A DNA stretch of 47,403 bases from IMG/VR virus record IMGVR_UViG_3300021976_000028, positions 1-47,403 of that record; one strand, 5' to 3'. The translations under genes and the position numbers were made by a program. The notes under the pieces are model-generated. The model was given only the letters and a program-made list of their open reading frames with translations, searched no databases and was not told the DNA's origin. Source of the stretch: a virus. Positions 4,729 to 42,437 of this stretch are shown piece by piece (the first letter of the stretch is position 1; the number at the start of each line of letters is the position of its first letter).

Positions 4729-4732
4729 TAGC

Positions 4733-4890
4733 TAAGTCTATCTAAGCGTCTAACTCGAGGATCAAGAGGGCTTAGCTAAGCTGCTCAAGCGATATGTTCC
4801 TAAGGTTAGACGCTTATAGACGCAGTCTAACTCAGAGTCTATATTATCGTGAGCGCGCGCGCTGAGTAGCGAGAGGACGGGTGACAGCCG
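4733..4890. promoter_or_regulatory. Intergenic island A with GTCTAAC words
   Basis: This gap is built from repeats. A perfect 12-bp inverted pair TAAGCGTCTAAC (4743-4754) and its complement (4805-4816) encloses a 12-bp palindrome GCTTAGCTAAGC (4770-4781). GTCTAAC appears at 4748 and 4834, and in inverted form at 4805. A GC-rich GAGCGCGCGCGCTGAG stretch follows at about 4852-4865. The 17-mer GTCTAACTCGAGGATCA (4748-4764) recurs inverted at 42277-42293. The island directly precedes the repeat-protein gene, so regulation of that gene, a structured RNA or an origin-like element are all possible. Confidence 0.6.
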
Positions 4891-9024: not shown

Positions 9025-9248
9025 TGGCAAGTGGCGACACTGTCTACCAGTGTGACAGCACACAGGTCCGGACCAACATGGACGGCAAGGACCCAGGTAG
9101 GAATACTGGCAACGGATTCCAGACGACACTTCAAGGGTCCGATGGAACCGTGGCGAGCATCTTCGACATCATTGGTGTGTCGAGCGGTTCGCTCAGTACA
9201 CCATTCGATGCATCCAAGACGTACGACGTCATCATCAAAGAACACTGA
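9024..9248 (+). CDS. Small head-region protein, unknown
   Basis: A 74-residue protein that I do not recognise. It is rich in Ser, Thr, Gly and Asp and starts on the ATG overlapping the previous stop. It ends 15 bases before the major capsid start. The setting suggests a small capsid accessory protein. Confidence 0.55.
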   Translation: MASGDTVYQCDSTQVRTNMDGKDPGRNTGNGFQTTLQGSDGTVASIFDIIGVSSGSLSTPFDASKTYDVIIKEH

Positions 9249-9263
9249 GGGGAGGGTACCTAA

Positions 9264-10274
9264 ATGCCGGGTTATGCACCGACTGGTTCTGGGAACGTTC
9301 ATTACGATCAGTTCCTAACCAACATTTCCGTCGCGTGGCCGAACATGGAATTGGTGGGCAACCAGCTCTTCCCTCAGGTCACGGTTCGGAAGCAGTCAGA
9401 CAAGTACTACGTCTTCAACGGTCGTGAGGCGTGGGTTCCTGAGGCCAGCGACGTTCGTGCGCCGGGCTCTGAGGCGCACGAAATCCCGGGCATGAAGGTG
9501 TCTCTGGACACCTACTACGCCCAGGAGCACTCGCTCCAGATCGCGGTCACGGATGAAGAGCGAGAGAACACCGACTCGCCCATGTCGCCTGACCGTGACG
9601 CTACGGAGCTCGTGACTTCCAAGGTCCTGCTGGCTCGTGAGATCGTCATGCGCGACATGGTCACCGCTACGGCTAACTACGCGACCGGCCTTTCGGTCAC
9701 CCTGCAGCTGGCAGCTGATACCGTCTCTGATGGTGTCACCTACGGCAGGCAGTGGAGTGAGGCTAACTCGACTCCGATCCGTGACATCCGTAGGGCTAAG
9801 GCTAAGATGCACGCTAAGTCGTGGATCCAGCCTAACGTCGCGGTAATCCCCTACCAGGTCATGACTGCTCTGGAAGACAGTGCGGACCTGATCGACCGTA
9901 TCAAGTACTCCGAGCGTGCCCTGCTGACGCCGGAACTGATCGCGACGATGCTGGGGCTGGGCAAGGTCATTGTACCTGGTGGCGGCTACAGCAACACCAA
10001 CATCGGTCAGGCTGTCGTGCCTGGCTACATCTGGGGCAAGGACGTTCTCCTGGCCTACGTACCGGACCGTCCGGGCCTTCGCACGCCGGCCTTCGGCTAC
10101 GAGTTCGTCTGGGGCTACGGTGGTGGTCTTGCACAGGCCGTCGACCGTTGGCGTGAAGAGCGGCGGAAGAGTGACGTCCTCCGACTCTCTCGCCGGTACG
10201 ACCTCAAACTCATTGGCGTCGACAGCAGCGGTGACACCCTCGCCGGGTTCCTGTTCAAGAATGCGGTGGCGTAA
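9264..10274 (+). CDS. Major capsid protein
   Basis: This 336-residue protein is predicted to form the icosahedral shell. The N-terminal part has 'NMELVGNQLFPQVTVRKQSDKYYVF', a pattern common in HK97-fold capsid proteins of the E-loop type, and the middle has 'LLAREIVMRDMVTA'. The C-terminal half holds the axial-domain-like 'AVIPYQVMTALED' and 'PGLRTPAFGYEFVWGY'. It has a strong GAGGGGAGG ribosome site and follows scaffold and decoration genes, as expected. The gene uses C-ending codons more uniformly than its neighbours, in line with high expression. Confidence 0.85.
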   Translation: MPGYAPTGSGNVHYDQFLTNISVAWPNMELVGNQLFPQVTVRKQSDKYYVFNGREAWVPEASDVRAPGSEAHEIPGMKVSLDTYYAQEHSLQIAVTDEERENTDSPMSPDRDATELVTSKVLLAREIVMRDMVTATANYATGLSVTLQLAADTVSDGVTYGRQWSEANSTPIRDIRRAKAKMHAKSWIQPNVAVIPYQVMTALEDSADLIDRIKYSERALLTPELIATMLGLGKVIVPGGGYSNTNIGQAVVPGYIWGKDVLLAYVPDRPGLRTPAFGYEFVWGYGGGLAQAVDRWREERRKSDVLRLSRRYDLKLIGVDSSGDTLAGFLFKNAVA

Positions 10275-10693
10275 TGACTGACAAGAAGGAAGAAGACGGC
10301 CGTCTGGTCGCAACCACTGGTATTAGCATCGACGGCGTCTCGTACCAGAAGGGCGAGTACGTCAACGTTTCTGGTCTCGACCAGGCCGAGTTCGACTACT
10401 ACGTCGAGCAGGGTATCTTCTGGACTGAGAGCCAGTGGGTCGGCAAGTACAAGGAGAAGCCAGTCGAGCACAAGGAGCCGAAGAGCTTCCCGCCGGTCGC
10501 TGGGACTTCAACGACGGCTCAGGGCGCTGCGGCTACGCAGACTGCTCAGCCGGCTCTTCGACGTGAGGGTGACACTCGTGTCGAGTCGACCACGAGTGGT
10601 CAGACTCCGGAAGAGCGCAAGGCTGCTACCACGCCGGCTCAGAGGCCTGCTCCGTCGGGCGACAGCCAGAAGGCTGTTCCGCCCAAGAAGTAG
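10274..10693 (+). CDS. Head-region protein with disordered tail
   Basis: A 139-residue protein of unknown function. Residues 1-65 look folded ('ISIDGVSYQKGEYVNVSGLDQAEFDYYVEQGIF'). The rest is rich in Ala, Thr, Pro, Gln and Lys and probably disordered. The ATG overlaps the capsid stop by one base. Such proteins after the capsid gene often serve head completion, but that is inference. Confidence 0.55.
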   Translation: MTDKKEEDGRLVATTGISIDGVSYQKGEYVNVSGLDQAEFDYYVEQGIFWTESQWVGKYKEKPVEHKEPKSFPPVAGTSTTAQGAAATQTAQPALRREGDTRVESTTSGQTPEERKAATTPAQRPAPSGDSQKAVPPKK

Positions 10694-10711
10694 GAGAGGA
10701 GGTTCAACCCG

Positions 10712-11164
10712 ATGGCACATGTTACTGAGTCCGATGTGCAAGCCTGGCTCGAAGAGTCTAAGCTTGAAGTTGGTACCCTGGAAGCGGAGTTTGAAGTTCA
10801 GATCGCGACCGAGGTCCTGGGTCGCATTGTGACAGCAGCGTATGATGTCACGGGTTGGACCGACTCCACTAACACGCCGGTGCTGGTCAAGAAGATCATT
10901 GCCATGCTGTACGCTGGTTGGTACTATGACAAGGTGTATAGCGAGACCAGTGAGACCAACCAATATGCACAGCGTCTAAAGCGGGCTGCCGAGACGCTGC
11001 TTCTAGGCATCATCGCAGGTACAACAGACCTCGGAGAAGTGCCTGGAATATCTGACCTAGGCAGCCCCGTGTTCTTCCCTACCGATGTTAGTAGTGCCCG
11101 GAGCCAGAATGAGTACGAAGTCGGCGATGGGCCTGCTGTGTTTGGTATGGGAGCTAGGTTCTAA
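10712..11164 (+). CDS. Head-tail connector protein
   Basis: This 150-residue protein is predicted to be an adaptor between portal and tail. Residues 1-105 are mainly helical with 'VTESDVQAWL' and 'KKIIAMLYAGWYYDKVYSE', the pattern of gp6/DUF1320-like connectors. A strong GAGGAGG site precedes the ATG. It ends in a one-base overlap with the next gene. The order connector, morphogenesis protein, tail terminator, tube matches standard siphovirus layout. Confidence 0.65.
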   Translation: MAHVTESDVQAWLEESKLEVGTLEAEFEVQIATEVLGRIVTAAYDVTGWTDSTNTPVLVKKIIAMLYAGWYYDKVYSETSETNQYAQRLKRAAETLLLGIIAGTTDLGEVPGISDLGSPVFFPTDVSSARSQNEYEVGDGPAVFGMGARF

Positions 11165-11715
11165 TGGCGACTCCTGAGAAGTTCCCAGTCAAGGGTCTTC
11201 GTATCGATGTCGGACTAAAGATGGAGTTTAGTCCGTCGATCGGTCTCCAGGCGAAGAACGTGGAAAAGTTCGGAATGGACATTCGCTCATTCCGAGAGCC
11301 ACTGAAACGTTCTATTCAAGAAGTCTTAGCACCCTCGTTCCGGAAGAACTTCGATGTGCAGGGGCGTCCCACTAAGTGGGCGCCTCTTGCTGAATACACT
11401 GTCGAAGTGCGAAGCAATTCAGGACCTATCCTGGAGCGCACGGGTCAACTGAAGAGGACGATTCAGCAGTTCAACATCTGGAGTGTTGACTCGGAGAAGG
11501 CAGCCATTACGAGGTTGCCATCTAAAATTTGGTACGGAACTCTTCACCAGGCTGGCCATATGGGATTGGGTGGCTCGGCTCCCCTACCTGCAAGACCGTT
11601 CGTCATGATTCAGGACCCTGAAGATTACGACGACATTGAGGAAGTGTTCGCTCGGTGGCTCCAGGAGCGAGCGATTGCCTCTGGCGCGTTCGTCAAGAAT
11701 CCTAGGGGGAAGTAA
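11164..11715 (+). CDS. Virion morphogenesis protein (Mu G/HK97 gp10-like)
   Basis: The 183-residue protein matches the phage virion morphogenesis or tail-completion family (Phage_tail_S type). Visible features are 'IQEVLAPSFRKNFDVQGRP' followed by 'KWAPLAEYTVEVR', 'ILERTGQLKRTI', and the C-terminal 'YGTLHQAGH' plus 'PARPFVMI' motifs. Members act at the head-tail junction during assembly. The start overlaps the previous stop by one base and the end overlaps the next start. Confidence 0.75.
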   Translation: MATPEKFPVKGLRIDVGLKMEFSPSIGLQAKNVEKFGMDIRSFREPLKRSIQEVLAPSFRKNFDVQGRPTKWAPLAEYTVEVRSNSGPILERTGQLKRTIQQFNIWSVDSEKAAITRLPSKIWYGTLHQAGHMGLGGSAPLPARPFVMIQDPEDYDDIEEVFARWLQERAIASGAFVKNPRGK

Positions 11716-21671: not shown

Positions 21672-21935
21672 ATGACACTCAGCAGCGACGGGCCGGTCGA
21701 GAAGAAGGTCATGGCCGCTACGGCCACGGCGTTAATCACCAGCTTCATCCTGGCCTACCTGATGAAGGAGTGGCCCTGGCTCATGCAGTTCAACGATCTG
21801 CTGGAGGTCGCCATCTCCGCCGTCATCGTGGCTGCCCTAACCTGGGTCGTCGCGTTCTACTCCAAGCATACGGCTCGCAACGACGTTGGTACTCGTCGCA
21901 CGGGCACGAGCGACTCGATTCCCCCTACTGGCTAA
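21672..21935 (+). CDS. Holin
   Basis: An 87-residue protein with two membrane helices (about residues 15-33 and 42-63) joined by a short loop, a charged N-terminus and a positively charged, Thr/Arg-rich tail. This is the usual plan of a small class II holin that opens the membrane for the endolysin. It has a GGAGGA ribosome site and is the last gene of the + strand block, followed by the bidirectional terminator. Confidence 0.8.
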   Translation: MTLSSDGPVEKKVMAATATALITSFILAYLMKEWPWLMQFNDLLEVAISAVIVAALTWVVAFYSKHTARNDVGTRRTGTSDSIPPTG

Positions 21936-21951
21936 TTTAGCCACACAGACC

Positions 21952-21992
21952 GCCAGCCAGCACCTACGCCCATCCCTCAGGTGCTGGCTGGC
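21952..21992. terminator. Bidirectional terminator between converging gene blocks
   Basis: GCCAGCCAGCACCT (21952-21965) and AGGTGCTGGCTGGC (21979-21992) are perfect complements over a 13-base loop. It lies exactly where the + strand structural block and the - strand block meet. The T tract is weak on both sides, but the 14-bp GC-rich stem and the place make a shared terminator the best reading. Confidence 0.85.
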
Positions 21993-22003
21993 AATCTCTT
22001 TGC

Positions 22004-22510
22004 CTAAACTAGTAGACCAAGTTGGAGCTGCCTCATGATAGGCGGGTACTCCATAGTCTTGATCAGATAGGTCAGCAGGTGTTGTGCCGCTGCCCTAGCA
22101 TCCTTTCGGCCGTTGGTCAAAGACCACAGGTTGAAGATTTCCATTTTCCGTTTGTCGGCGAACTTACGTTCGTGTGGCATCTGGCTGACGAGATTCAGAG
22201 GGCCTGGTCGTAGCGCGGAGGCCAGCTTGATGGCGCCGATGTACTCGGGTGCCATGAAGTCTAGCCCTTCTCTTTCCGAGCCGTCATCCTTCTTCTGAAG
22301 GTGCCACCGCTCGAAGCCGACTGTGTAGTCGAAGTCGCTATGCTGGATGCCTATGAGTCTTTCGATGGTTGTATGGTGGTCAGGGTGTTCGATCTGACCA
22401 ATGGCGAACTCCATGTTGTAGTACTCGATACCGTCGGGTCCTTCTACTTCTCGTGCTGAGAAGGTGGCCCAGCCGGTAACGCCTCCTGGATCAAAGAAGA
22501 TTATCTTCAT
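22004..22510 (-). CDS. RuvC-like Holliday junction resolvase
   Basis: This 168-residue protein has an RNase H-like fold typical of phage RuvC-type resolvases, which cut branched DNA before packaging. Acidic residues are in place: 'FFDPGGVTGWA' at the N-terminus, 'VGFERW' in the middle and 'KDARAAAQHLLTYL' near the end. The ATG at 22510 is chosen because AGGAG lies 9 bases before it; ten extra upstream residues in frame look unnatural. The gene is the last of the - strand block and overlaps the gene before it by 20 bases. Confidence 0.75.
   Translation of the reverse strand: MKIIFFDPGGVTGWATFSAREVEGPDGIEYYNMEFAIGQIEHPDHHTTIERLIGIQHSDFDYTVGFERWHLQKKDDGSEREGLDFMAPEYIGAIKLASALRPGPLNLVSQMPHERKFADKRKMEIFNLWSLTNGRKDARAAAQHLLTYLIKTMEYPPIMRQLQLGLLV
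22122..22130 (-). repeat. CCTGTGGTC partial repeat copy
   Basis: The - strand reads CCTGTGGTC without the extra leading C, followed by TTT as in other copies. It lies in the resolvase gene. Confidence 0.5.
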
Positions 22511-23693: not shown

Positions 23694-23838
23694 GGATGTG
23701 CTGGGAAGCGAGATGAGGGTCTCTACACTCCGTGGCTGCCCGCAGGTGCGTAGGCATCGAGCACACGCTCATACCGTTGACGACGTATTGTGCGTCTTGT
23801 GTGCCAGCTCCTCTGAGCCAGCAGAGGATGCACTTCAC
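23653..23838 (-). CDS. Small zinc-ribbon-like protein
   Basis: A 61-residue protein with 'MKCILCW' at the start and 'YVVNGMSVCSMPTHL' in the middle, so C-x2-C and C-x4-H could hold one zinc ion. It starts within the last base of the polymerase gene. Similar small Cys-rich proteins are common in actinophage genomes and their role is unknown. Confidence 0.55.
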   Translation of the reverse strand: MKCILCWLRGAGTQDAQYVVNGMSVCSMPTHLRAATECRDPHLASQHIHDILAEGNPGESR

Positions 23839-26183
23839 TAGACATCACCCCAATTGTCCCCGATGGTGACATCACAGGCGAAGTTAACATAACCTTCGAC
23901 TAGCTTGTCGGCATGTGCAATCATCGTTGACCGCATCATCTCCCCTACTTCTTCGGCATCTCTTTGATGGCACTCTGCCATAAGAGAGTCATGAACGAGG
24001 TTCCTGAAGACCGCCTTACCTCTCAGGGCTGGTCGTAGCTCCGTAAACGAAGAGAGGCAAATGTCGCTGGAGGTACTCTGGGGAAGGAAGCTGAGTCCTT
24101 CCTTGATGGTACTCTTCCTGTTGTTGTCGGTAATGAGCCAGAAGCGACGATGACGGCCGAAGGGTGTAACCAGGTCTTCGCCGTCCAGAATACGTCTCTC
24201 GACGTCCTTCTGGAAGGCCACGATACTTGGGATAACGTCAAAGAACGCTCCCATGCCTCGCCTAGCCTCGGCGACAGAGATCTTAAACTCCTCGGCGATA
24301 CTGTACTCTTCTCGGCCGTAGGCAAGTCCGTAGACATACGCCTTGACTCGAATCCGGAGCTCCTTGAGCTCAGGAGCCGATAGAGTCGATACATCACCAT
24401 AAAGCACGGGTCGGAGTTCAGTGAACAGGTCACGAGTTGGATCATTGAAGATACTGCGGAAGTATTCGTCCTTGGCGAGGAAGGTAAGCACACGCAGTTC
24501 AGCTTGAGAATAGTCCACGGAGACGAAGACGTTGTCAGGCTTGGAGGGAACGAATTGTCGTCTAATGATCGACTCTCGAGGGATGTTTTGCAGGTTCGGA
24601 TTTCTGCACGCCAGACGTCCAGAAGTTGTTCCGTGAACAAGGAAGTTGGGGTATACCCTGCCCCGATACATACGCTTGCGGATGCCCTTGACGTAGGTGC
24701 CGTAGAGCTTTGCCTCGCGACGATGGCGAAGGAGCGTACTGCAGAACGCCAGGAGTCCATCCTTGCCTTGCTTGGCTGCACGCTCGACAAGGCCTGTGAG
24801 AGTCTCTTCATCCGTCGAGAGAACCTTGACACCATACACCTCCTCCAGCGCTTCCTTGACCTGCTTGGGGGACCGAGGGTTGAAATTGAGGTACTCCGGG
24901 TCAGCAAGGATGGTACGGATCTCATCCTCGATGACAGCGAGACTGTCGAGGTATCCAGTCATGAGCTGGGTGTTGTACTTCAGGTCAATGGTGATGCCGT
25001 TGAGCTCGACGAACTTGAGCTCGTTGGCGGCAGCCACTAGCCTGTCATGCATGTGCCGGAGACCCTCTTTCTCCAGCCTCTCCATCCAGTACTCGGCAGC
25101 CTCCCAGGTGATAGCGCAGTCATAGGCGTTGTACATGTCGAGCTCGTCGACCGGAATGACTCCGTAGCCCAACGTCTTCGGGTTGTACTTGTCTAGTGCG
25201 TGCTTCCAGTCTGGTGTGCCCAGGATCTCGGTACCCATGTAGCCGAGCGAATGGATTCCCGGACGCTCGTCACAGACGTAGGAAGCGATCATCGTATCGA
25301 ACCAGATGTCGACGTTACCTATCTGGGGATACATTCCGCTAGCGTCGTACTTGCCGTTCTGTGCAATGACATTCTTCTTACGGAAGAGTCTGAGCAGCGC
25401 CTCCCACACCCTGTGGTCTTTGAGGGCCTCCCGCTCGATGACGACTACCTTGCCCTTAGCGTAGCAGACGCCGACGCACAGGATCTCGTAGTTGTTCGGA
25501 TGGTCGAATGCCGTATCCTTCTCGGTGTCCGTCTCGATGTCGACGACGATCCGATCGGTGGGATAGTCTATGAGCTGTTCGATGACTAGTAGAGAGTCTT
25601 CGACATGATGGTACACGACGTACTGCGGAGGCTCCCAGGTACGAACCTTCAGGTTAACCTTTCCGACATCCGTAACTAGATGCGGAAAGAAGTCCCCTGA
25701 TCGGAGGCATGCTGCCGGGTGAAACGTAGGTATGACCCGGACTCCATCCAGATACGGCGACGTCCTCCCGAGTCCAGGTCGGAGCTTCGTAACACCATCA
25801 CTAGTCGCCAGTAGCGACTGTGAGGCAGTGTTACCCATAGTGACCACATTCGTAACGCCTCGCTCTTGTAGCTCCGCCAGTAGACGGGGCCTACATGCTT
25901 TGACTGCCGCAGCAGGCGGTGTTGCGTTTTCCGGAGGGCGGCAGTTGACTGCATTGGCGAGGACTGATTCACTTCGTTTAATGCCGTGGTGTCGAAGTAC
26001 TGCATCCAGGAGCTGTCCACTGACCCCGGTGAAAGGCTTACCTCCCTTGACTTCGTTGGCGCCGGGTGCTTCTCCGACGAATGCTGTAAGAGCCTTTTCA
26101 GGTCCATCGCTGCCTACGTAGTGACCGACGTCGAATAGAGGGCAGCGTTCACACTCTGCCGAAGGATGTTTACGGTCGGACAT
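23838..26183 (-). CDS. DNA polymerase I (family A) fused to uracil-DNA-glycosylase domain
   Basis: A 781-residue replicative polymerase. Residues about 1-185 match family 4-type uracil-DNA glycosylases: 'GEAPGANEVKGGKPFTGVSG', the 'HPAA' motif, and four Cys (11, 14, 81, 97) spaced like the 4Fe-4S ligands of that family. Residues about 205-355 are a 3'-5' exonuclease with 'DIETD' and 'YDCAITW'. Residues about 390-781 are the polymerase: motif A 'DYSQAELR', motif B around 'RVKAYVYGLAYG', and motif C 'VHDSLMAE', in which Ser replaces the common Glu. It lies directly downstream of dpdA with a 14-base overlap. The fusion could excise uracil at the fork or act as a uracil sensor. Confidence 0.9.
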   Translation of the reverse strand: MSDRKHPSAECERCPLFDVGHYVGSDGPEKALTAFVGEAPGANEVKGGKPFTGVSGQLLDAVLRHHGIKRSESVLANAVNCRPPENATPPAAAVKACRPRLLAELQERGVTNVVTMGNTASQSLLATSDGVTKLRPGLGRTSPYLDGVRVIPTFHPAACLRSGDFFPHLVTDVGKVNLKVRTWEPPQYVVYHHVEDSLLVIEQLIDYPTDRIVVDIETDTEKDTAFDHPNNYEILCVGVCYAKGKVVVIEREALKDHRVWEALLRLFRKKNVIAQNGKYDASGMYPQIGNVDIWFDTMIASYVCDERPGIHSLGYMGTEILGTPDWKHALDKYNPKTLGYGVIPVDELDMYNAYDCAITWEAAEYWMERLEKEGLRHMHDRLVAAANELKFVELNGITIDLKYNTQLMTGYLDSLAVIEDEIRTILADPEYLNFNPRSPKQVKEALEEVYGVKVLSTDEETLTGLVERAAKQGKDGLLAFCSTLLRHRREAKLYGTYVKGIRKRMYRGRVYPNFLVHGTTSGRLACRNPNLQNIPRESIIRRQFVPSKPDNVFVSVDYSQAELRVLTFLAKDEYFRSIFNDPTRDLFTELRPVLYGDVSTLSAPELKELRIRVKAYVYGLAYGREEYSIAEEFKISVAEARRGMGAFFDVIPSIVAFQKDVERRILDGEDLVTPFGRHRRFWLITDNNRKSTIKEGLSFLPQSTSSDICLSSFTELRPALRGKAVFRNLVHDSLMAECHQRDAEEVGEMMRSTMIAHADKLVEGYVNFACDVTIGDNWGDV
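25409..25418 (+). repeat. CCCTGTGGTC repeat copy 5
   Basis: An exact copy inside the polymerase gene, followed by TTT. Confidence 0.7.
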
Positions 26184-26934
26184 TTGCTATCCAGTGATCC
26201 ATCGTTCGGACGTTCTCACTGATGATCTCGCCGATGGAATCGTTCTCTGGCACCCATCGGAAATAGGATTTGGGTCGGCGGAGGTTCAGAGGAGCGTTCT
26301 CGAACAGGTGACCGTACATTGCCAGGTAGTACGGAAGGCTCGTGTCCATGCCTCTGATGTACGGATTGGAAGCCACGACGTAAGCTTCGTTGTACCACAG
26401 GGGGTGAGAGCCGAGGAGGTGGATGTCGATTGGCCTTTTGAAGTTGTTCTTGATGATGCTGGCCAGATGCCCTCGGAGAGCTGCACCGAACCGATTCTGC
26501 TCGATGGTGTCGAAGAGCAGCCGAGGAAGTCCGATACAGGTGACCTGCTCGAACTGTTGGGCATACATGGCCCGCTTGAGAATGCCAGCGAGCGTCCTAC
26601 CGTGGACGACGTACATGTGATTGAAGCTGGGATTGAATTCCCAGGAGTCCAGGATAGCCTGGGTGGTGTCACCTTCGCCCATGCGGTCAGTGATGACCAC
26701 CTCGTGAGCTGAGGCCTTCTCTGCCACCTGGTAAAGAGCTGCCGGGGCGATGTGATCACCCTCTGCGGCTCCGTTGTCCATGATGCGGTACTGTTCGACG
26801 AGAGAGTCCGAGTGCAGTTCGGCGTACCGCTCGTCGTTCATGAGCTGAGGCAGGAGAAGCTGGTAGTCCCGGAAGAAGGTATCTTCTGCCAACTTCAGTG
26901 GTGGGATGGTGGCTAACTTCATGAGCCATTCCAT
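26170..26934 (-). CDS. dpdA: DpdA-like DNA 7-deazaguanine transglycosylase
   Basis: This 254-residue protein resembles phage DpdA, a relative of tRNA-guanine transglycosylase that replaces guanine in DNA with preQ0. It has 'YRIMDNGAAEGDHI' near residue 50, in which the Asp is the expected catalytic or base-binding residue, then 'HEVVITDRMGEGDTT' near residue 78, and 'GRTLAGILK' and 'LIGLPRLL'-like segments later. The gene lies within a folE-queE-queD-queC set, which strongly supports the call. The start may be the ATG at 26934 (GGAG four bases before) or at 26922, which forms an ATGA overlap with the upstream stop. It lacks the extra C-terminal PUA domain of tRNA enzymes. Confidence 0.82.
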   Translation of the reverse strand: MEWLMKLATIPPLKLAEDTFFRDYQLLLPQLMNDERYAELHSDSLVEQYRIMDNGAAEGDHIAPAALYQVAEKASAHEVVITDRMGEGDTTQAILDSWEFNPSFNHMYVVHGRTLAGILKRAMYAQQFEQVTCIGLPRLLFDTIEQNRFGAALRGHLASIIKNNFKRPIDIHLLGSHPLWYNEAYVVASNPYIRGMDTSLPYYLAMYGHLFENAPLNLRRPKSYFRWVPENDSIGEIISENVRTMDHWIANVRP

Positions 26935-27158
26935 TCTGCTCCGACGGCCTTGAAGGCTGCAGGACCGAGGTCATGGATTTCATCCTCGCCGAACTTCTTG
27001 TCGAGGTAGTCGTTCATCAGCATCAGCCGGATGAACGTGTAGCGAGCGTAGTTGGAAAGGTCGATGATCTCCTGCATCGCCTCTTCGAGGGTGTTGACCT
27101 GGAGGAACTTGCCCTCGCCGTACTTCAGCGAGCCTAGCGTATGCCTCTCCTGACACAT
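26919..27158 (-). CDS. dATP/dGTP diphosphohydrolase N-domain-like protein
   Basis: The 79-residue product has 'RHTLGSLKYGEGKFLQVNTLEEAMQEIIDLSNYARY', a pattern like the N-terminal all-alpha domain of phage dATP/dGTP diphosphohydrolases and MazG relatives. Such enzymes remove or reshape dNTP pools. The ATG at 27158 is chosen since AGGAG lies 9 bases before it and just after the preceding stop; a longer frame starts at 27236 but would overlap the MazG gene by 62 bases. Its link to the modification genes is notable: it could lower dGTP or purge unwanted nucleotides. Confidence 0.6.
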   Translation of the reverse strand: MCQERHTLGSLKYGEGKFLQVNTLEEAMQEIIDLSNYARYTFIRLMLMNDYLDKKFGEDEIHDLGPAAFKAVGAEWNGS

Positions 27159-27174
27159 GCGGTCGAACTCCTGG

Positions 27175-27492
27175 CTATACCGCTCGACGGCTTCCGTGAC
27201 CGAATCGGGCTTGGTTGAATCGACGCTTGTCATCATATACCCTTTCGATGTTGATGCCCATGGCTGCGGCGGCGTTCATCCAGTAGATCAGGATGTCGAC
27301 CATCTCTTCGTGCAGTTGAGGAGTGGCGTCGGCCATAGTGATGGAGCCGCGCATGACCTTCTTCATGACGTTGCAGGCTTCTCCCATCTCGCCCATCATG
27401 GCGAGCATCAGGAAGAAGGGATCTCGTGCGTGTTCTGGGAACCACTCCTCACTATCCTGGAGGCACTGTTCTGACATCTCCTGCAGTTCCAT
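27175..27492 (-). CDS. MazG-like nucleotide pyrophosphohydrolase
   Basis: A 105-residue all-alpha NTP pyrophosphatase. The motif 'GEMGEACNVMKK' supplies the E-x2-E pair and 'LHEEMVDILIYWMNAAAAMGI' the E-x2-D pair that bind magnesium; 'KRRFNQARFG' closes the domain. MazG enzymes cleave NTPs or (p)ppGpp. The ATG at 27492 has an AGGA site; ten more in-frame residues upstream look like readthrough. It is the second of three MazG-type genes in this window. Confidence 0.8.
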   Translation of the reverse strand: MELQEMSEQCLQDSEEWFPEHARDPFFLMLAMMGEMGEACNVMKKVMRGSITMADATPQLHEEMVDILIYWMNAAAAMGINIERVYDDKRRFNQARFGHGSRRAV

Positions 27493-27667
27493 CTTCGATC
27501 CTTTCGACTGGAAGGACAACAACGATGTATGAATGTCGTTGATGCCCAGTTATGACTTGTGCAGCCACCTTGTGAAAGGTTTCTGCTTCCCCGCTGTCGT
27601 ACACGAGGGTGACCCGATCCAATGTCAGGTCACCCCGCAGCACGGGCTCACATTCAGTGTCGCCCAT
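27452..27667 (-). CDS. Small unknown protein in modification operon
   Basis: A 71-residue protein, beta-rich: 'LTLDRVTLVYDSGEAETFHKVAAQVITG' then 'YIVVVLPVERIED'. The ATG at 27667 overlaps the folE stop by 14 bases; its end overlaps the MazG start by 41 bases. No family is recognised. The tight packing and ordinary codon use suggest that it is real. Confidence 0.5.
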   Translation of the reverse strand: MGDTECEPVLRGDLTLDRVTLVYDSGEAETFHKVAAQVITGHQRHSYIVVVLPVERIEDGTAGDVRTVPPG

Positions 27668-28268
27668 TGAGTCCGGCAAGAAATTCAGCCTTTGCAGTTC
27701 GGTCGTGATCGGCGAAGACGCCCTTCACCGAAGTCGTACGTGTCTTGGTACCCGGACTGTGCACGCCTCTGATCGTCATGCAGAGGTGTTCAGCCTCCAT
27801 GACTACGATGAGACCCTTCGGGTCCAGATGCAGCTCCAGCCACTTTGCTACCTGACTGGTAAGCCGCTCCTGAACCTGGAGGCCTGCAGCGTGCCACTTG
27901 ACGACGCGGGCGAACTTACTAAGTCCTGCTTCCAACTTCTCGGGCACGTAGCCGATGTGTGCTAGGCCTATGAAGGGAACGACGTGATGATTGCAGAGGC
28001 TGACGAATGGGATGTTGTAGACCGACACCATCTCGTCACCGCTTGCAGGGAAGACCTTCCACTTGATGTCTTCCGGAGTAGTCAGTTCACGAAGCATCTT
28101 GACGAATCGTTTGGGAGTATCCATCCCGTGCTCATCCGTCTTAAGCCCTGTGGTCTCTGTGAGCAGGTGTCGCGCGCTTTCCAGAACGGAAGCTTCGTGG
28201 TGCATCTCGATCTGAGTCACGCCAGGACCTTTCTTGAAGAAGCCATCGGCTCCGATGTAGTCGCTCAT
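27654..28268 (-). CDS. folE: GTP cyclohydrolase I
   Basis: FolE makes 7,8-dihydroneopterin triphosphate from GTP, the first step to preQ0. The 204-residue protein has 'FVSLCNHHVVPFIG' (zinc Cys and catalytic His pair), 'LSKFARVV', 'QVQERLTSQVA' and 'EHLCMTIRGV' (second zinc Cys). The ATG at 28268 overlaps the queE stop as ATGA; 39 additional in-frame residues upstream belong to the queE reading region and are rejected. It works with QueD, QueE and QueC encoded next to it. A CCCTGTGGTC copy lies in the gene. Confidence 0.93.
   Translation of the reverse strand: MSDYIGADGFFKKGPGVTQIEMHHEASVLESARHLLTETTGLKTDEHGMDTPKRFVKMLRELTTPEDIKWKVFPASGDEMVSVYNIPFVSLCNHHVVPFIGLAHIGYVPEKLEAGLSKFARVVKWHAAGLQVQERLTSQVAKWLELHLDPKGLIVVMEAEHLCMTIRGVHSPGTKTRTTSVKGVFADHDRTAKAEFLAGLNGRH
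28146..28155 (+). repeat. CCCTGTGGTC repeat copy 6
   Basis: An exact copy inside folE. Confidence 0.7.
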
Positions 28269-29017
28269 CGTCCACGCTCCTGCGGGTCCCAGATCATGTT
28301 GTGGAGTTGCACGTTCAACTTCCAGTTCAGTTTGTTCTGGAGGACGAAGTCGACGATCTCGGCGTTCGTCAGAGGACTGTCCCATACTCTGCCGACGAAG
28401 ATTGAAGGTAGACCAGGAGCTTGCTCGAGGTCGTAGTTCTGTGCAAGCTGAAAGGCCTCATTGAGGTCCTTCATCGTCTTGCAGGTGAACTTGATGACGT
28501 GGTTGTCTGGATGAATACATCCGTACAGGTTGTCGATGTTTTTGATTCGTACCGTGTCGAGAGGGTCTTCTCCACTGTCGGAGAGCTTCCAGTCCACGAC
28601 GAAGTTTATGACGTCCAAGAGCGGCTCGGGGTAATGAATCGTTCCGTTGCTAAACATCTCTACCGTGAAGTGCCAGTTGTCCACTAGGGACATAGCCAGG
28701 TCGGTGAGCTCCTTGATTGGCTGGAGCATCGGCTCGCCACCAGTGAGGCAGACATTGCTTGCTCCAGTCTCGGCACGCATGTCAATGATCTTACCGATAA
28801 GACCATTCGTATTGCGAATGTCATGATCCGTAGCATCACGAACCGGAACAAGCTTCTGTTCCTTACGGTACAGCTTCGGGTCGATGGCGTGCGGAGTGTC
28901 GCAGGGCCAGCCTGGGCACTTAAGGTTGCAGCCGGCGAATCTAACGAACTGCGTGGGCACCCCTACCCTTGGGCCTTCTCCTTGAACGGAAGGGTAGTGT
29001 TCCATTAGCCTTAGCAT
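28265..29017 (-). CDS. queE: 7-carboxy-7-deazaguanine synthase, radical SAM
   Basis: QueE converts 6-carboxytetrahydropterin into 7-carboxy-7-deazaguanine. The 250-residue protein has the QueE N-terminus 'SVQGEGPRVGVPTQFVRFAGCNLKC' and a glycine-rich 'CLTGGEPM' SAM-binding motif. The cluster cysteines read C-x3-C-x4-C ('CNLKCPGWPC') and not the common C-x3-C-x2-C; this is seen directly. 'VDWKLSDSGE' is near the middle. The start at 29017 is behind AAAGGTGG; a second ATG in frame lies 15 bases later. The folE start overlaps its stop. Confidence 0.88.
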   Translation of the reverse strand: MLRLMEHYPSVQGEGPRVGVPTQFVRFAGCNLKCPGWPCDTPHAIDPKLYRKEQKLVPVRDATDHDIRNTNGLIGKIIDMRAETGASNVCLTGGEPMLQPIKELTDLAMSLVDNWHFTVEMFSNGTIHYPEPLLDVINFVVDWKLSDSGEDPLDTVRIKNIDNLYGCIHPDNHVIKFTCKTMKDLNEAFQLAQNYDLEQAPGLPSIFVGRVWDSPLTNAEIVDFVLQNKLNWKLNVQLHNMIWDPQERGR

Positions 29018-29216
29018 CGTCCACCTTTCGATGTGATAGGACTACAGTGAGCTCGCCGGTTGTTTCTTTTATGCCGAAGTTACGAAACCAGGCTTCGGTT
29101 TCCTTTTCGGAAGTCTTATCCCGAATGATGTATGAGAGGAGGTATCCTATGATGGATAAGAACATCACCACTGCCATGATGCTGAGCAGACTGGCTACCA
29201 GCCTAGTGATCTCCAT
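28941..29216 (-). CDS. Small single-span membrane protein
   Basis: A 91-residue protein with one strong membrane segment at about residues 7-31 and a charged remainder with an Arg-rich C-terminus. It begins inside the last codons of queD and its last 77 bases overlap queE. The long overlap casts some doubt on the end, but the hydrophobic segment and the ribosome-like GAAGGGGA make it credible. Function unknown. Confidence 0.5.
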   Translation of the reverse strand: MEITRLVASLLSIMAVVMFLSIIGYLLSYIIRDKTSEKETEAWFRNFGIKETTGELTVVLSHRKVDDAKANGTLPFRSRRRPKGRGAHAVR

Positions 29217-29676
29217 CCGATTCCCCTTCGAAGATGACTCCGGCTCCGTTCACCGATGTCTCTGAGACATGAACGGTGAGGGTAGGAATAGCGAAATGGT
29301 TCTGTGACCACTCTGCGATCCAGAGAGCCAGGTTCTCTGTCGTCGGATCTCCGCCTACGGCGATGAGTCCTGGCAGGAAGTTGACGTGGATATTGCCAAT
29401 GTCGACGCCCAGCGGCCCTGCGAACGGGTCATTCCTGTTCAGCAGGAGGTGGTGGTCGTACTGTGTGTCTAGGTAGTTTCGGAAGCTGTGCTTGACCTGG
29501 CCGAACTCCAGTGCCTTGCCGAAATGGTTCTGGAGCATACCCTGACCATTGACCGTACCGTAAATCTTCAGGGAGACCCACATCGAGTGGCCGTGAATGT
29601 TCTCGCACTTACCGGGGCTCTCGAAGAGGCGATGTGCTACTTCGATGTTGTGACGTACTTCGATATACGCTTTCAT
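29203..29676 (-). CDS. queD: 6-carboxy-5,6,7,8-tetrahydropterin synthase
   Basis: QueD turns dihydroneopterin triphosphate into 6-carboxytetrahydropterin. The 157-residue protein has the zinc ligands His near residue 15 ('NIEVAHRL') and the 'NIHGHS' pair, the catalytic Cys in 'GKCENIHGH', 'YDHHLLLN' with Asp and His of the active site, and 'VHVSETS' at the C-terminus. The second of two ATGs (29676) is taken, since GAGGAGG is then at a normal distance and the start overlaps the previous stop as TGATG. It belongs to the preQ0 pathway with folE, queE and queC. Confidence 0.92.
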   Translation of the reverse strand: MKAYIEVRHNIEVAHRLFESPGKCENIHGHSMWVSLKIYGTVNGQGMLQNHFGKALEFGQVKHSFRNYLDTQYDHHLLLNRNDPFAGPLGVDIGNIHVNFLPGLIAVGGDPTTENLALWIAEWSQNHFAIPTLTVHVSETSVNGAGVIFEGESDGDH

Positions 29677-29825
29677 CATTCCTCCTCATCCGTTCCCTGA
29701 GCTGCAGCCCAGTATGCTAGTAACTTGAGAGCCTGCTCTTCTGTGAAGCCAACTGCTATGTAACATGTAAACAGCTCATGCTGATGCCGTGCTAGTGACA
29801 TTAGGGGAGTAGTAAATTCGTCCAT
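29676..29825 (-). CDS. Small helical protein before queD
   Basis: A 49-residue protein beginning at the ATG at 29825 behind AAGGA. It is mainly helical: 'MSLARHQHELFTCYIAVGFTEEQALKLLAYWAAAQG'. The 'GFTEEQALKLL' part recalls a short UBA-like or phage helical domain. A longer frame with a TTG start is rejected. It is coupled to queD by a TGATG overlap. Confidence 0.6.
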   Translation of the reverse strand: MDEFTTPLMSLARHQHELFTCYIAVGFTEEQALKLLAYWAAAQGTDEEE

Positions 29826-29925
29826 GGATTTCCTTATGTGCGGGGTACCCCTCCCGCTCCCGACGCGAGCTAGTCTCCTCAAGGCCCTACAGCATTCAGT
29901 GGGCAATGGTCGGCCCTCATGGGTA

Positions 29926-30645
29926 CTAGACTACTTCAGGGGACTGAACGACCGTCTTCCAGTACTCCTTGTCAGCGTACTCGGTCTGGTCGTACTGGGT
30001 GTAGCCGGAGATGTCGATGGCCTCGAGCCGCTCGACGCAGGTTCCGCACTTCCCGCAGTGGACTTCGCCACCCTCATAGCAGGACCAGGTCTCGTGGAAC
30101 ACGACGCCGCTCTGGAAGGCCAGATAGGCTATCTGGGCCTTCGTCATACGAGCGAAGGGGGTGAAGACTTCGAGGTAAGGGTTGGAGAGACCCTCGTTGC
30201 CGAGCCGGACGGTCTTCTGCAGAGCGTCGATGAACTCGGGGCGACAGTCCGGGTATACGAAGTGGTCGCCTCCGTGAACACCTGTGCCGATCATGGCTGC
30301 GCCATTAGCTACGGCTACGCCAGCAGCGATGCTCAGCATGATCATGTTCCGGTTAGGAACAACCGTTTGAGTCATTGTCGCTTCGGCGTAGTGACCCTGA
30401 GGTACGGGCATCTTGCTGCTGGTGAGCGACGAGACGGCGATGAGGGGAGTGATCGAGGACAAGTCGATCGTGTGATGCTGGATGCCTCGCTTGCCGCAGA
30501 ACGCGGTAGCGAACCAGAGTTCCTTCTTGTGCCGCTGTCCGTAGTCGAACGAGAGGGCGATAACTTCTTTCCCGTCGTTCATCAGGTGCTGGACTAGCGT
30601 ACATGAATCAAGCCCACCCGAGAGGATGGCAACTGCCTCAGCCAT
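29926..30645 (-). CDS. queC: 7-cyano-7-deazaguanine synthase
   Basis: QueC uses ATP and ammonia to make preQ0 from 7-carboxy-7-deazaguanine. The 239-residue protein has the PP-loop 'SGGLDS' at residues 9-14, 'FDYGQRHKKE', 'VPNRNMIMLSIAAG' and the zinc motif 'CYEGGEVHCGKCGTC'. There is no GAT domain as in Gat-QueC fusions, so the product should be the nitrile preQ0. The ATG is behind GAAGAGG, immediately after the primase stop. About 100 bases without a gene separate it from the next gene downstream; those bases hold a palindrome GGGGTACCCC and nothing else I recognise. Confidence 0.95.
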   Translation of the reverse strand: MAEAVAILSGGLDSCTLVQHLMNDGKEVIALSFDYGQRHKKELWFATAFCGKRGIQHHTIDLSSITPLIAVSSLTSSKMPVPQGHYAEATMTQTVVPNRNMIMLSIAAGVAVANGAAMIGTGVHGGDHFVYPDCRPEFIDALQKTVRLGNEGLSNPYLEVFTPFARMTKAQIAYLAFQSGVVFHETWSCYEGGEVHCGKCGTCVERLEAIDISGYTQYDQTEYADKEYWKTVVQSPEVV

Positions 30646-32847
30646 TTAAACCTCTTCCTTGATTGCAGTGTATATGGTTGTTTGTCCCATTTTCACGGAG
30701 CTGACCATGCCTCGCTGCTCGAGGGTGGTGAACACTTGGTCCGCCATCTTGGCATCGAGATGGTAGTTCGACATGAGGGCGGCTCGGGAAAGGCCAGACC
30801 CTCCACTCCGTCTGATCTGCTTGAAGATGATGTCTAGTTGCTTCTCGTTCTTTCCCTTTCCGACATTCAGGATAATTTCCTTGGCATACGCACGCCACGA
30901 TTCCCCGTAGTATGCTGCATGGATAATGTCACTGGCTTCGACTTGCAGATCACCTTCTGGCCTCTGACGAGAGGCGGCAATCAGCATTGCGACCTTCAGT
31001 ATGGACTTACCCAAACGGTCATACAGAGGGGTGTAGATTTCCGGGGCAGTACTTTGAACTCCCAGTCTGTTAAGGAGTCCTTCAAGCTTGTTGTACCGTA
31101 CCCAAGCATCTTCGGTTAAGACGGTATCCCAGACCTTAGTGCCGGCCGGGACTTCGATACCGTTCAGCTTGATAACGTCTACGCGCCGATACCATTGACT
31201 AATATCCAGGAGCTCTGCCCTAATGGCATCACGTCCTGTGTTGTCTCTGGCTTGAGGGGGACCTAGGGGCTTGACCTTGGTGATGTCTGACTCTGCTGTG
31301 ATGAACAAGAAGCGGGGCAGGAAGCCAGAAGCAACCTGTTCATAGGTGAGGATCTCCTGTGTCTTGGACTTGATCCCACCCGCGTAGATAATCAGGCGAG
31401 GGTCTTTGACCTCCAGGGTCTCCCTCCTCAGGACTCTCTTCTGTACCTTCCCATCGTACAACTTCGTCAGCATCTCCGCCATGCCCGCCAGATAGTCTCT
31501 CTTGCCCATCTGATCGAGCAAACCAGAAAACTCGTCGCGAAGGAATACCGATGGCTTCCCCGGCCTCGTCGTCAGGCCAACGAAGAGACCCTCCAGTGAG
31601 CCATCCGTTGCCAGAAGAATATCCTCGTCGACCTCGCTTATCAGGTCCATAGCGATGTCCATAGAGGTACTCTTCCGTGTCAGTGTGGTGTCCGCTAGGA
31701 TCATAAACCAGACATTCGGGCTCATAATCCCAAAGGAAGTAGGCAACCTCACATTCCCCGATAGGATAGATGACAAGGCTACAAACGCACCCGCAACATG
31801 ATACTGCGGTGCTGCATCGCCAAGGCCAGATGCCCAGGTGATGTATCTCTCGACCCAGGTTTCCTGAGTCTTCGCCCACGTCTTTTCTTCTTCCGTAACC
31901 AGGTCTGGTTCATCATGTACCTGGATGTGCATACGGCTAAGGTTATCTACTTGCCGTGCGTGAGCTCGGCAGACATCCTTCCAGAGATGAATGTCTGGTC
32001 TCTGGTCACGCGTGTACTTATTGCACGCGGCTGCCTTGGAGACGACGAAGATTTCTTCCCGACTCATGCCGGCCTCGAGGCACAGCATCATCAGGTTCCA
32101 GAGTGGCTCACTCCAGCTTGCCCCTGTCTTAGGCTCTTCGCCGAACAGCCCCCACACCTGTGGGTTGATACGCATCTTGTACTTTGCAATGATCTCGTCA
32201 GCAGGCTCGTGGGGTAGCGCTGTGACGGGAAAAGGTAATTCCTCCTTTGCATATCCGGCAACTGCAGGATACCGTCCGAAGTCTGCCGGACGGAAACGCC
32301 CCTTGGTTGCACGCAGCGGTTTGACCACAGGGGCTTCACCTGCTGTTGTGCCGTACTTGTAGTTGTTCGTTAGGGGGACACGAAGCAACTGGGTAAGGTC
32401 CCAACCGCTTTTATCTGCACCTTGTGGTGCATGGTAATATGCAATGCGGCGGCTGATCTCCTCCGCATCCTCTGGGGCTTGTGTCTCCTCGAACACCCAG
32501 AAGGCTTGGAATCGTCCAGGAGATGACTCAAGGACGAATGAAGGCTGTACTAGTAGTAGGTCCGGATTGCAAGTATCTAGGTCAGCCCAAGCTACTGGGC
32601 ATTCATCGACATCCTCCTTCGTCCGAGATTCCTTTCGGAGGATCTGCGGACAGAAGTAAACGTTGTTGCCAGGAATCAGACGCTGAATATGTTCCAGCAT
32701 CTGATCGAGCTGTGACGGGTACTCCCAGAAGGTTTCGTTGAACACCCGCTTGTTGGCTGCCAGAGTAGCGATCGAGATGAACCCACGGGCGGGGCCAAAG
32801 AGGGACCTGAAGAAGGTCTCCCGGCTGCCGGTGAAGTCATCAATCAT
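30646..32847 (-). CDS. Primase-helicase-like protein with DUF3987-type ATPase
   Basis: This 733-residue protein is predicted to prime and assist replication. Residues about 60-210 recall RepB/AEP-type primases: 'VAWADLDTCNPDLLLVQPSFVLESSPGRFQAFWVF' with paired acidic residues. Residues about 330-540 recall DUF3987 ATPases with 'ADTTLTRKSTS' as Walker A-like loop and 'VFLRDEFSGLL' as Walker B. The Walker A glycines are replaced by Ala and Arg, so nucleotide binding must differ. A winged helix ('GLSRAALMSNYHLDAKMADQVFTTLEQRGMV') closes the protein. It is the first gene after a - strand terminator and lies just upstream of queC. Confidence 0.78.
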   Translation of the reverse strand: MIDDFTGSRETFFRSLFGPARGFISIATLAANKRVFNETFWEYPSQLDQMLEHIQRLIPGNNVYFCPQILRKESRTKEDVDECPVAWADLDTCNPDLLLVQPSFVLESSPGRFQAFWVFEETQAPEDAEEISRRIAYYHAPQGADKSGWDLTQLLRVPLTNNYKYGTTAGEAPVVKPLRATKGRFRPADFGRYPAVAGYAKEELPFPVTALPHEPADEIIAKYKMRINPQVWGLFGEEPKTGASWSEPLWNLMMLCLEAGMSREEIFVVSKAAACNKYTRDQRPDIHLWKDVCRAHARQVDNLSRMHIQVHDEPDLVTEEEKTWAKTQETWVERYITWASGLGDAAPQYHVAGAFVALSSILSGNVRLPTSFGIMSPNVWFMILADTTLTRKSTSMDIAMDLISEVDEDILLATDGSLEGLFVGLTTRPGKPSVFLRDEFSGLLDQMGKRDYLAGMAEMLTKLYDGKVQKRVLRRETLEVKDPRLIIYAGGIKSKTQEILTYEQVASGFLPRFLFITAESDITKVKPLGPPQARDNTGRDAIRAELLDISQWYRRVDVIKLNGIEVPAGTKVWDTVLTEDAWVRYNKLEGLLNRLGVQSTAPEIYTPLYDRLGKSILKVAMLIAASRQRPEGDLQVEASDIIHAAYYGESWRAYAKEIILNVGKGKNEKQLDIIFKQIRRSGGSGLSRAALMSNYHLDAKMADQVFTTLEQRGMVSSVKMGQTTIYTAIKEEV
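32323..32333 (-). repeat. CCCCTGTGGTC repeat copy 7
   Basis: An exact copy on the - strand in the primase gene. Confidence 0.7.
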
Positions 32848-42140: not shown

Positions 42141-42305
42141 TAGAACCCTGCGCCTCCTAACGGATCTTGTTGTGCTGAGCGCTCGCGAGCTCGCTAAGTC
42201 TAACTCGCGGTCTAACTAAGTCTATATGAGTCTAAGCTCGGTTTCACGCGTGCTGAGCACTATTACTAAGGCTTCATGATCCTCGAGTTAGACTTCAAGA
42301 GAGAC
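42141..42305. promoter_or_regulatory. Intergenic island C with GTCTAAC words
   Basis: GTCTAAC occurs at about 42198 and 42210, GTCTAAG at 42229, and the inverted form at 42287-42293. A palindrome GAGCGCTC lies at 42177-42184, followed by CGCGAGCTCGC. TGATCCTCGAGTTAGAC (42277-42293) is the exact complement of a 17-mer in island A. GGATCTTG at about 42162 recurs in island B. The island lies between a 43-residue gene and the helix-turn-helix gene. Confidence 0.6.
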
Positions 42306-42437
42306 TCAGCGCTTGTAGCCCATGCCTCGGAGCTTGTAGTACTTCCGAAGTATGACTCGCCACGCTCTTCCTGATCGGGTGCATGAGCACCTATGCACGA
42401 AGACATGCTGGAAGTGATCCCGTAATCGCTCGATCAT
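42306..42437 (-). CDS. 43-residue basic protein
   Basis: The frame from the ATG at 42437 to the TGA at 42306 gives 43 residues: 'MIERLRDHFQHVFVHRCSCTR' then 'WRVILRKYYKLRGMGYKR', very basic. The ATG overlaps the upstream stop as ATGA and GGGAGGAGG lies 11 bases before it. A small nucleic-acid-binding protein is likely. Confidence 0.55.
   Translation of the reverse strand: MIERLRDHFQHVFVHRCSCTRSGRAWRVILRKYYKLRGMGYKR

Follow-up and report, generated by a model that had tools for sequence, protein, structure and literature searches.

The window analysed here, the 47,403 bases that make up the whole of IMG/VR record IMGVR_UViG_3300021976_000028 of an uncultivated phage, encodes a complete set of enzymes for the synthesis of 7-cyano-7-deazaguanine (preQ0) together with a short guanine transglycosylase of the DpdA type, and we consider it likely that the phage makes preQ0 and inserts it into its DNA by means of this transglycosylase. 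We are confident that the DNA is modified with a 7-deazaguanine of some kind and hold preQ0 to be the probable main base, while the chances of near-complete guanine replacement appear evenly balanced on our analysis. In the proposed mechanism, FolE, QueD, QueE and QueC would turn GTP into the free base preQ0, as judged from the families to which they belong and from their intact active-site motifs; the transglycosylase would swap guanine in phage DNA for preQ0 by way of an aspartate nucleophile (D193); deoxyguanosine (dG) would be replaced by the deoxynucleoside dPreQ0 very extensively, possibly completely; and the modified DNA would be shielded from host restriction. The system in the window is real, and it is a new member of a kind of system already known. 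What is new relative to the original prediction, which had read a preQ0 modification set with a DpdA-like inserter at 26170-30645, is the type of transglycosylase, and hence the expectation of a far more extensive replacement of guanine than in phages with classical DpdA.

The transglycosylase (250 residues; minus strand, 26170..26922 from its probable start, the open reading frame [ORF] being open to 26934) gave no useful match in Pfam, PHROG and NCBIfam scans with its sequence alone, and a few of its relatives gave weak matches to DUF6610 and DpdA models; its identity is drawn from fold and profile evidence. The AlphaFold2 model built from an alignment with relatives (pLDDT 90.9, pTM 0.89) has eight strands in barrel order, that is, a TIM barrel, and is a bare barrel without an extra nucleic-acid-binding domain. 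When this model was compared with the PDB by Foldseek, the 43 best fold matches were all tRNA-guanine transglycosylases (TGTs; E from 4e-6, TMq up to 0.65), the first TIM barrel of another kind following at 3e-4, and the transglycosylase fold, which the original prediction had set beforehand as a check on itself, was present. The sequence profile found a DNA-guanine transglycosylase (7ui4, E=0.006) as its top and only plausible relative in the PDB, and a profile-profile comparison of 89 family members with the DpdA of Gordonia phage Sour gave 88% over 155 columns, with the motifs DNG, PDxxGD, GLPR, HLLG and MDTS falling on or near DSG, LDVIGD, GLGG, HGWG and VDSS of Sour. The link to Sour emerged only with this larger alignment, first comparisons with the Sour and Dp-1 DpdA proteins having failed. 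On the model, then, the window protein is a transglycosylase of the TGT/DpdA superfamily, a (beta/alpha)8 barrel with its motifs in DpdA order. Residues D79, R150, H168, G171, R190 and D193 are invariant in 84 of 84 family sequences, as is D49, which sits inside the search pattern; the conserved aspartates D49, D79 and D193 lie at strand ends in the model, and the order of the motifs suggests, by analogy with TGT, that D193 would be the nucleophile, D49 the acid/base and D79 the residue for base recognition.

The family is short (about 250 residues) and has as members CPT_0056 of Campylobacter phage CP220, CGPG_00065 of Cellulophaga phage phiST and proteins of Bacillus phages BSTP5, BSTP8, BSTP10 and BSTP12 and of Weizmannia phage Youna2, to which BSP7 was added by tblastn with other members. 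CPT_0056, annotated as "hypothetical protein", matched the family profile at 3e-21 over almost its full length. A single-sequence scan of viral contigs with the window transglycosylase found no relative, the group being reached by way of QueE, and a pattern scan of 84,980 bacterial and archaeal genomes found no family relative; the short family goes almost entirely undetected by those libraries of Pfam, PHROG and NCBIfam that were searched. The transglycosylase region of locus L027 (3480-4268) and its homologues in BSTP5, BSTP10 and BSTP12 are annotated as hypothetical, polynucleotide kinase, NadR-like or integrase, which look like misannotations.

The proposal of a DpdA-like inserter holds as far as the fold is concerned, but the protein is not a classical DpdA. 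The family profile gave no match at E<=1 in phages 9g, nt-1, Dp-1, Sour and HVTV-1, the last of which has been reported to be without DpdA. Assignment to classical DpdA of the 9g type was set aside on the missing 9g, Dp-1 and Sour matches, with Sour reached by profile-profile comparison only, and assignment to DpdA2 (nt-1 type) on the missing nt-1 match and on a histidine: DpdA2 is without the DpdA histidine (His196), whereas H168 of the HLLG motif is invariant in the short family, aligns with the histidine of HGWG in Sour and probably corresponds to His196 of published DpdA work. Judged by these sequence comparisons, the inserter is of a different and much shorter family than classical DpdA, common to CP220; isoelectric points gave no useful separation of the two. 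Cui et al. in 2023 reportedly defined a DpdA3 subfamily as allowing complete guanine replacement, which is said to cover Campylobacter phages, and the membership shared with CP220 is suggestive of DpdA3.

The four genes of preQ0 synthesis are intact, co-directional and on the minus strand, and ORFs, Pfam and PHROGs bore out the complete set that had been read from the sequence. FolE (GTP cyclohydrolase I, 27654..28268; Pfam 4e-49, PHROG 9e-49, PDB 4uqf 2e-36) has 204 residues from a start most likely at 28268, where it would form an ATGA overlap with the QueE stop, rather than at 28385, to which the ORF is open. QueD (6-carboxytetrahydropterin synthase, 158 residues, 29203..29679) matched Pfam PTPS at 4e-21 and a QueD-like PHROG at 2e-25, and its closest PDB entries are 6-carboxytetrahydropterin synthases. 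QueE (radical SAM 7-carboxy-7-deazaguanine synthase, 250 residues, 28265..29017) matched phrog_2076 (9e-33), Pfam Fer4_12/radical SAM (9e-8) and PDB 6nhl. Its cluster motif, CNLKCPGWPC, is CX3CX4C and not the usual CX3CX2C, the two extra residues being plain in the alignment with 6nhl; outside this motif the protein aligns well enough with QueE (PHROG, PDB) for its function to be probably kept. Among related loci the motif was CX3CX4C in 31, CX3CX2C in 12 and neither in 8, several of these with a longer insertion, and the insertions fall between the second and third cysteine.

QueC (239 residues, 29926..30645; Pfam QueC 3e-63, PHROG QueC-like 3e-69), the enzyme that leads from 7-carboxy-7-deazaguanine to preQ0, bears on the identity of the base. 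The signature of canonical preQ0-forming QueC (PF06508 cluster 1) comprises SGGxDS, YxQxHxxE, VPxRN, YPDC and a Cys4 zinc motif (PMC13329287), and the window protein has SGGLDS, YGQRHKKE, VPNRN, YPDC and a four-cysteine zinc site, all of the canonical motifs, with a first cysteine spacing of 7 residues against the published 8. An N-terminal GAT domain is absent, and a scan of the window genes, covering all but a few small ORFs, turned up neither QueF nor ArcS nor an amidotransferase; the original prediction had likewise noted the absence of QueF and of GAT on QueC. With a QueC that is canonical in all its motifs, and with neither QueF nor an amidotransferase found, the predicted base is preQ0, and the original prediction is supported on this point.

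A final base of 7-amido-7-deazaguanine (ADG; dADG as deoxynucleoside) appears unlikely, even if the best characterised relative of the transglycosylase goes with it: in CP220 and CPt10, 100% of dG is replaced by dADG (PMC8306585), and QueC reaches preQ0 via ADG (PMC13329287). The QueC of CP220, however, has lost YxQxHxxE and YPDC, which is consistent with stopping at ADG, whereas the window QueC keeps both, and the QueC of the dPreQ0 phage CAjan is also canonical at the motifs tested. For preQ0, we regard a series of natural variants as the best argument for the assignment, ranging from loci without QueC through GAT-QueC to canonical QueC. Phage phiST (NC_020842) and the IMG/VR contigs L005, L050, L052 and L126 have no QueC anywhere in the record, the four contigs being possibly fragments, and have the transglycosylase together with QueE and QueD, FolE being seen in all but L126; therefore 7-carboxy-7-deazaguanine is predicted in their DNA. 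In L009, a 483-residue GAT-like QueC fusion (9969-11420) directly adjoins a diverged transglycosylase (9186-9968; DSD for DNG), and its GAT-like domain, as read from the sequence by eye, would predict a base of the G+ or ADG type. The window, given its canonical QueC and no further enzyme found, would have preQ0. Elsewhere, a single 969-residue frame in L008 (6619-9528) matches primase and QueC, either a natural fusion or a sequencing artefact.

The extent of the replacement is argued from the inserter. Extensive replacement is expected because CP220, in which guanine is replaced throughout, has the same transglycosylase family and not a classical DpdA. Replacement might instead be partial and possibly sequence-guided, with preQ0 in place of roughly one guanine in three. 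The model for this would be Rosebush and CAjan, whose inserter is a classical DpdA and which have the same four biosynthetic genes, neither QueF nor an amidotransferase, and dPreQ0 at 28% and 32% of G (PMC6884629). We give partial replacement some credence, though less than an even chance, as the window enzyme belongs to a different, shorter family with its characterised relative in a fully substituted phage, and the profile of that family finds nothing in 9g, nt-1, Dp-1 and Sour.

The transglycosylase and the preQ0 genes mostly travel together. An IMG/VR search in which the transglycosylase itself was the query yielded 80 loci, to which the phiST protein added 4; the 61 that met a requirement of 4 kb upstream were counted, several contigs being near-duplicates, so that the counts are partly non-independent. 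Genes for preQ0 synthesis are carried by 55 of the 61 loci and all four by 37, alongside polA in 51, primase in 48, a MazG-like gene in 42 and a gene for a 105-residue protein in 35. Gene order is conserved as well: 48 of the 49 loci with at least five of the genes on one strand follow the same order as the window, and in 44 of 51 the start of polA is at most 200 nucleotides from the end of the transglycosylase ORF. An apparent loss of QueE in some relatives turned out to be relocation in the four that were checked (L069, L070, L071, L079). A transglycosylase subgroup (L118, L119, L122, L123, L130) is without preQ0 genes or polA nearby, and in the four of these five that were checked over whole contigs QueE and FolE were not found.

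All ORFs of the original block lie where they had been placed, but the operon-like block extends beyond 26170-30645, to a primase upstream and a polymerase downstream. The primase (30646..32847, minus strand, 733 residues; RepB-primase and DUF3987 domains in Pfam, PHROG DNA primase 1e-90) is the first gene of the conserved block, and the last (23838..26183, minus strand) encodes a family A DNA polymerase with an N-terminal uracil-DNA glycosylase (UDG) domain (Pfam DNA_pol_A 5e-57, UDG 2e-22). With the same query, BSTP8 and Youna2 gave a match in a small gene of its own close to polA, which probably carries the UDG part.

Two nucleotide hydrolases had been proposed within the block, of which one stands. 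The gene at 27175..27522 (minus strand; ATG start possible at 27492) encodes a MazG-like nucleotide pyrophosphohydrolase (phrog_3301 4e-6, phrog_229 2e-5; Pfam MazG 0.0012, with a score of 19.6, below the 22-bit cut-off), and its MazG domain and metal-binding quartet E35/E38/E63/D66, invariant in 9 relatives, support its reading as a hydrolase, which may trim a competing dNTP pool; the original suggestion of control over the guanine nucleotide pool would have this one hydrolase behind it. The second candidate, an all-helical 105-residue protein (26919..27236, minus strand; AlphaFold2 pLDDT 72) with no assigned function, could be matched to no recognisable hydrolase, whether with Pfam and PHROGs, against PDB sequences or by its fold, and the proposal is unsupported.

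The prevalence of the MazG-like gene and polA among the loci would also fit a route at the level of nucleotides, in which the transglycosylase would take dGMP or dGTP as its substrate, the MazG-like enzyme would have to clear away competing dGTP, and dPreQ0-TP would be built into DNA by the neighbouring family A polymerase. In phiST, BSTP8/Youna2 and CP220 the transglycosylase has kinase-like or HD-phosphohydrolase genes as neighbours, the window enzyme is a bare barrel, and for Campylobacter phages a modified dGTP has been suggested (PMC6884629). The window, however, yielded no dNMP kinase, its sole plausible P-loop protein being Sak4-like; and known DpdA acts on nucleic acid, the fold and motifs of the window protein matching transglycosylases that do so. 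We consider this route very unlikely, and the same holds for its fullest outcome, nucleotide-level exchange giving a genome with essentially no guanine and preQ0 throughout; such a genome, if real, would be the guanine counterpart of the Z-genome.

Least probable of all, and in our judgement very unlikely, is that the genes serve to supply queuosine for host tRNA, or raise host preQ0, and leave the phage DNA unmodified. PreQ0 is a common precursor, and phages that have the pathway but lack DpdA have been suggested to use it in this way (PMC6884629); here, by contrast, a relative of the DNA-guanine transglycosylases sits in the same block and adjoins polA, its sequence is without a TGT-like cysteine zinc site, and QueF, needed for preQ1 and queuosine, was not found in the window genes scanned.

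Several points weigh against insertion of preQ0 by the short transglycosylase as we propose it. The window phage is uncultivated, the modification of its DNA, as of that of its immediate clade, is a prediction from sequence, and CP220 is the sole basis for the expected extent of replacement. The window transglycosylase is just 19-33% identical to its relatives and has H in the VxQG motif where most of them have Q, and HMMER gives no direct link between the short family and classical DpdA. The identification of the short family as DpdA3 is a probable one. Finally, in 6 of the 61 loci the transglycosylase was found but no preQ0 gene; the contigs of these six, several of them short fragments, showed no QueE or FolE elsewhere either.

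The remaining genes of the block are small, and there are two of them where one had been proposed. A protein of 76 residues with a TTG start and no assigned function (29676..29906, minus strand) matched phrog_9855 weakly (0.003; function unknown in PHROGs), and an orphan gene for 91 residues with a hydrophobic N-terminal stretch (28941..29216, minus strand) has no relative among the IMG/VR loci compared. In some relatives of the window, such as L018 (8914-9324) and L019 (5157-5666), the interval between queC and queD encodes a small protein whose N terminus resembles a signal peptide. In the window at large, the structural genes (terminase, portal, major capsid, tape measure, endolysin) are on the plus strand and the replication genes (primase, Sak4-like, exonuclease, SSB-like, UDG-PolA) on the minus strand, with the preQ0 genes in the same block. 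Where the plus- and minus-strand gene blocks converge, a 34-nucleotide inverted repeat with a 13-nucleotide loop (21932-22012) is a possible bidirectional terminator; promoter and terminator scans of the window gave counts at chance level only, and no Rfam match or tRNA was found in it. The non-coding stretches 42172-42340 and 4731-4816 have repeated and inverted boxes in common (CTAAGTCTA, TCTAACTCG, CTCGAGGATCA), possibly regulatory or origin elements.

The window is part of a large group of environmental phages that has gone mostly unannotated, with 80 or more IMG/VR loci and isolates from Bacillus, Weizmannia, Cellulophaga and Campylobacter, which probably replace guanine with 7-deazaguanines via one short transglycosylase family and which include the natural variants with different predicted bases described above. 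Hypermodified genomes of this kind bear on sequencing bias and restriction resistance, and the extent of replacement is directly testable in the existing isolates BSTP8 and Youna2.

Among known phages, CP220 and CPt10 share with the window the short transglycosylase over a full-length match, with DN, E, PD, HLLG and LDTS motifs, and also encode QueC and QueE; Hutinet et al. in 2019 grouped the Campylobacter phages with dADG under phages that have preQ0-pathway genes but not DpdA, undetected enzymes being allowed for (PMC6884629). CP220 differs in its scattered genes, flanking kinase and HD genes, family B polymerase, altered QueC and dADG as the base. Phage phiST gave the best viral structural match (TM 0.81) and has its transglycosylase beside kinase-like, MazG, FolE, QueE and QueD genes, but no QueC. 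The Bacillus phages and Youna2, for which a literature search found no modification data, have transglycosylases 24-25% identical to that of the window and resemble it in gene order (queC..queD-queE-folE..transglycosylase-polA in Youna2, queD-queE-folE..transglycosylase-polA in BSTP8), whereas a kinase-like gene replaces the MazG-like one, QueE has CX3CX2C and UDG is a separate gene. The phages with classical DpdA (9g, CAjan, Rosebush, Sour, Dp-1) likewise combine FolE, QueD, QueE and QueC with a transglycosylase, but a longer one (311 residues in Dp-1, 357 in Sour) that was reached by profile-profile comparison only, and Rosebush and CAjan, at about 30% guanine replacement, depart from what is expected of the window. 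In gene content the window falls in with the group 2 preQ0 systems (PMC6884629), having the four genes, no QueF, ArcS or GAT-QueC among the genes scanned, and a DpdA-type transglycosylase, though of a different subfamily, and it would share with them dPreQ0 in virion DNA; the dpdA of CAjan, a phage with the same four genes, has been shown to protect against restriction (PMC6884629).

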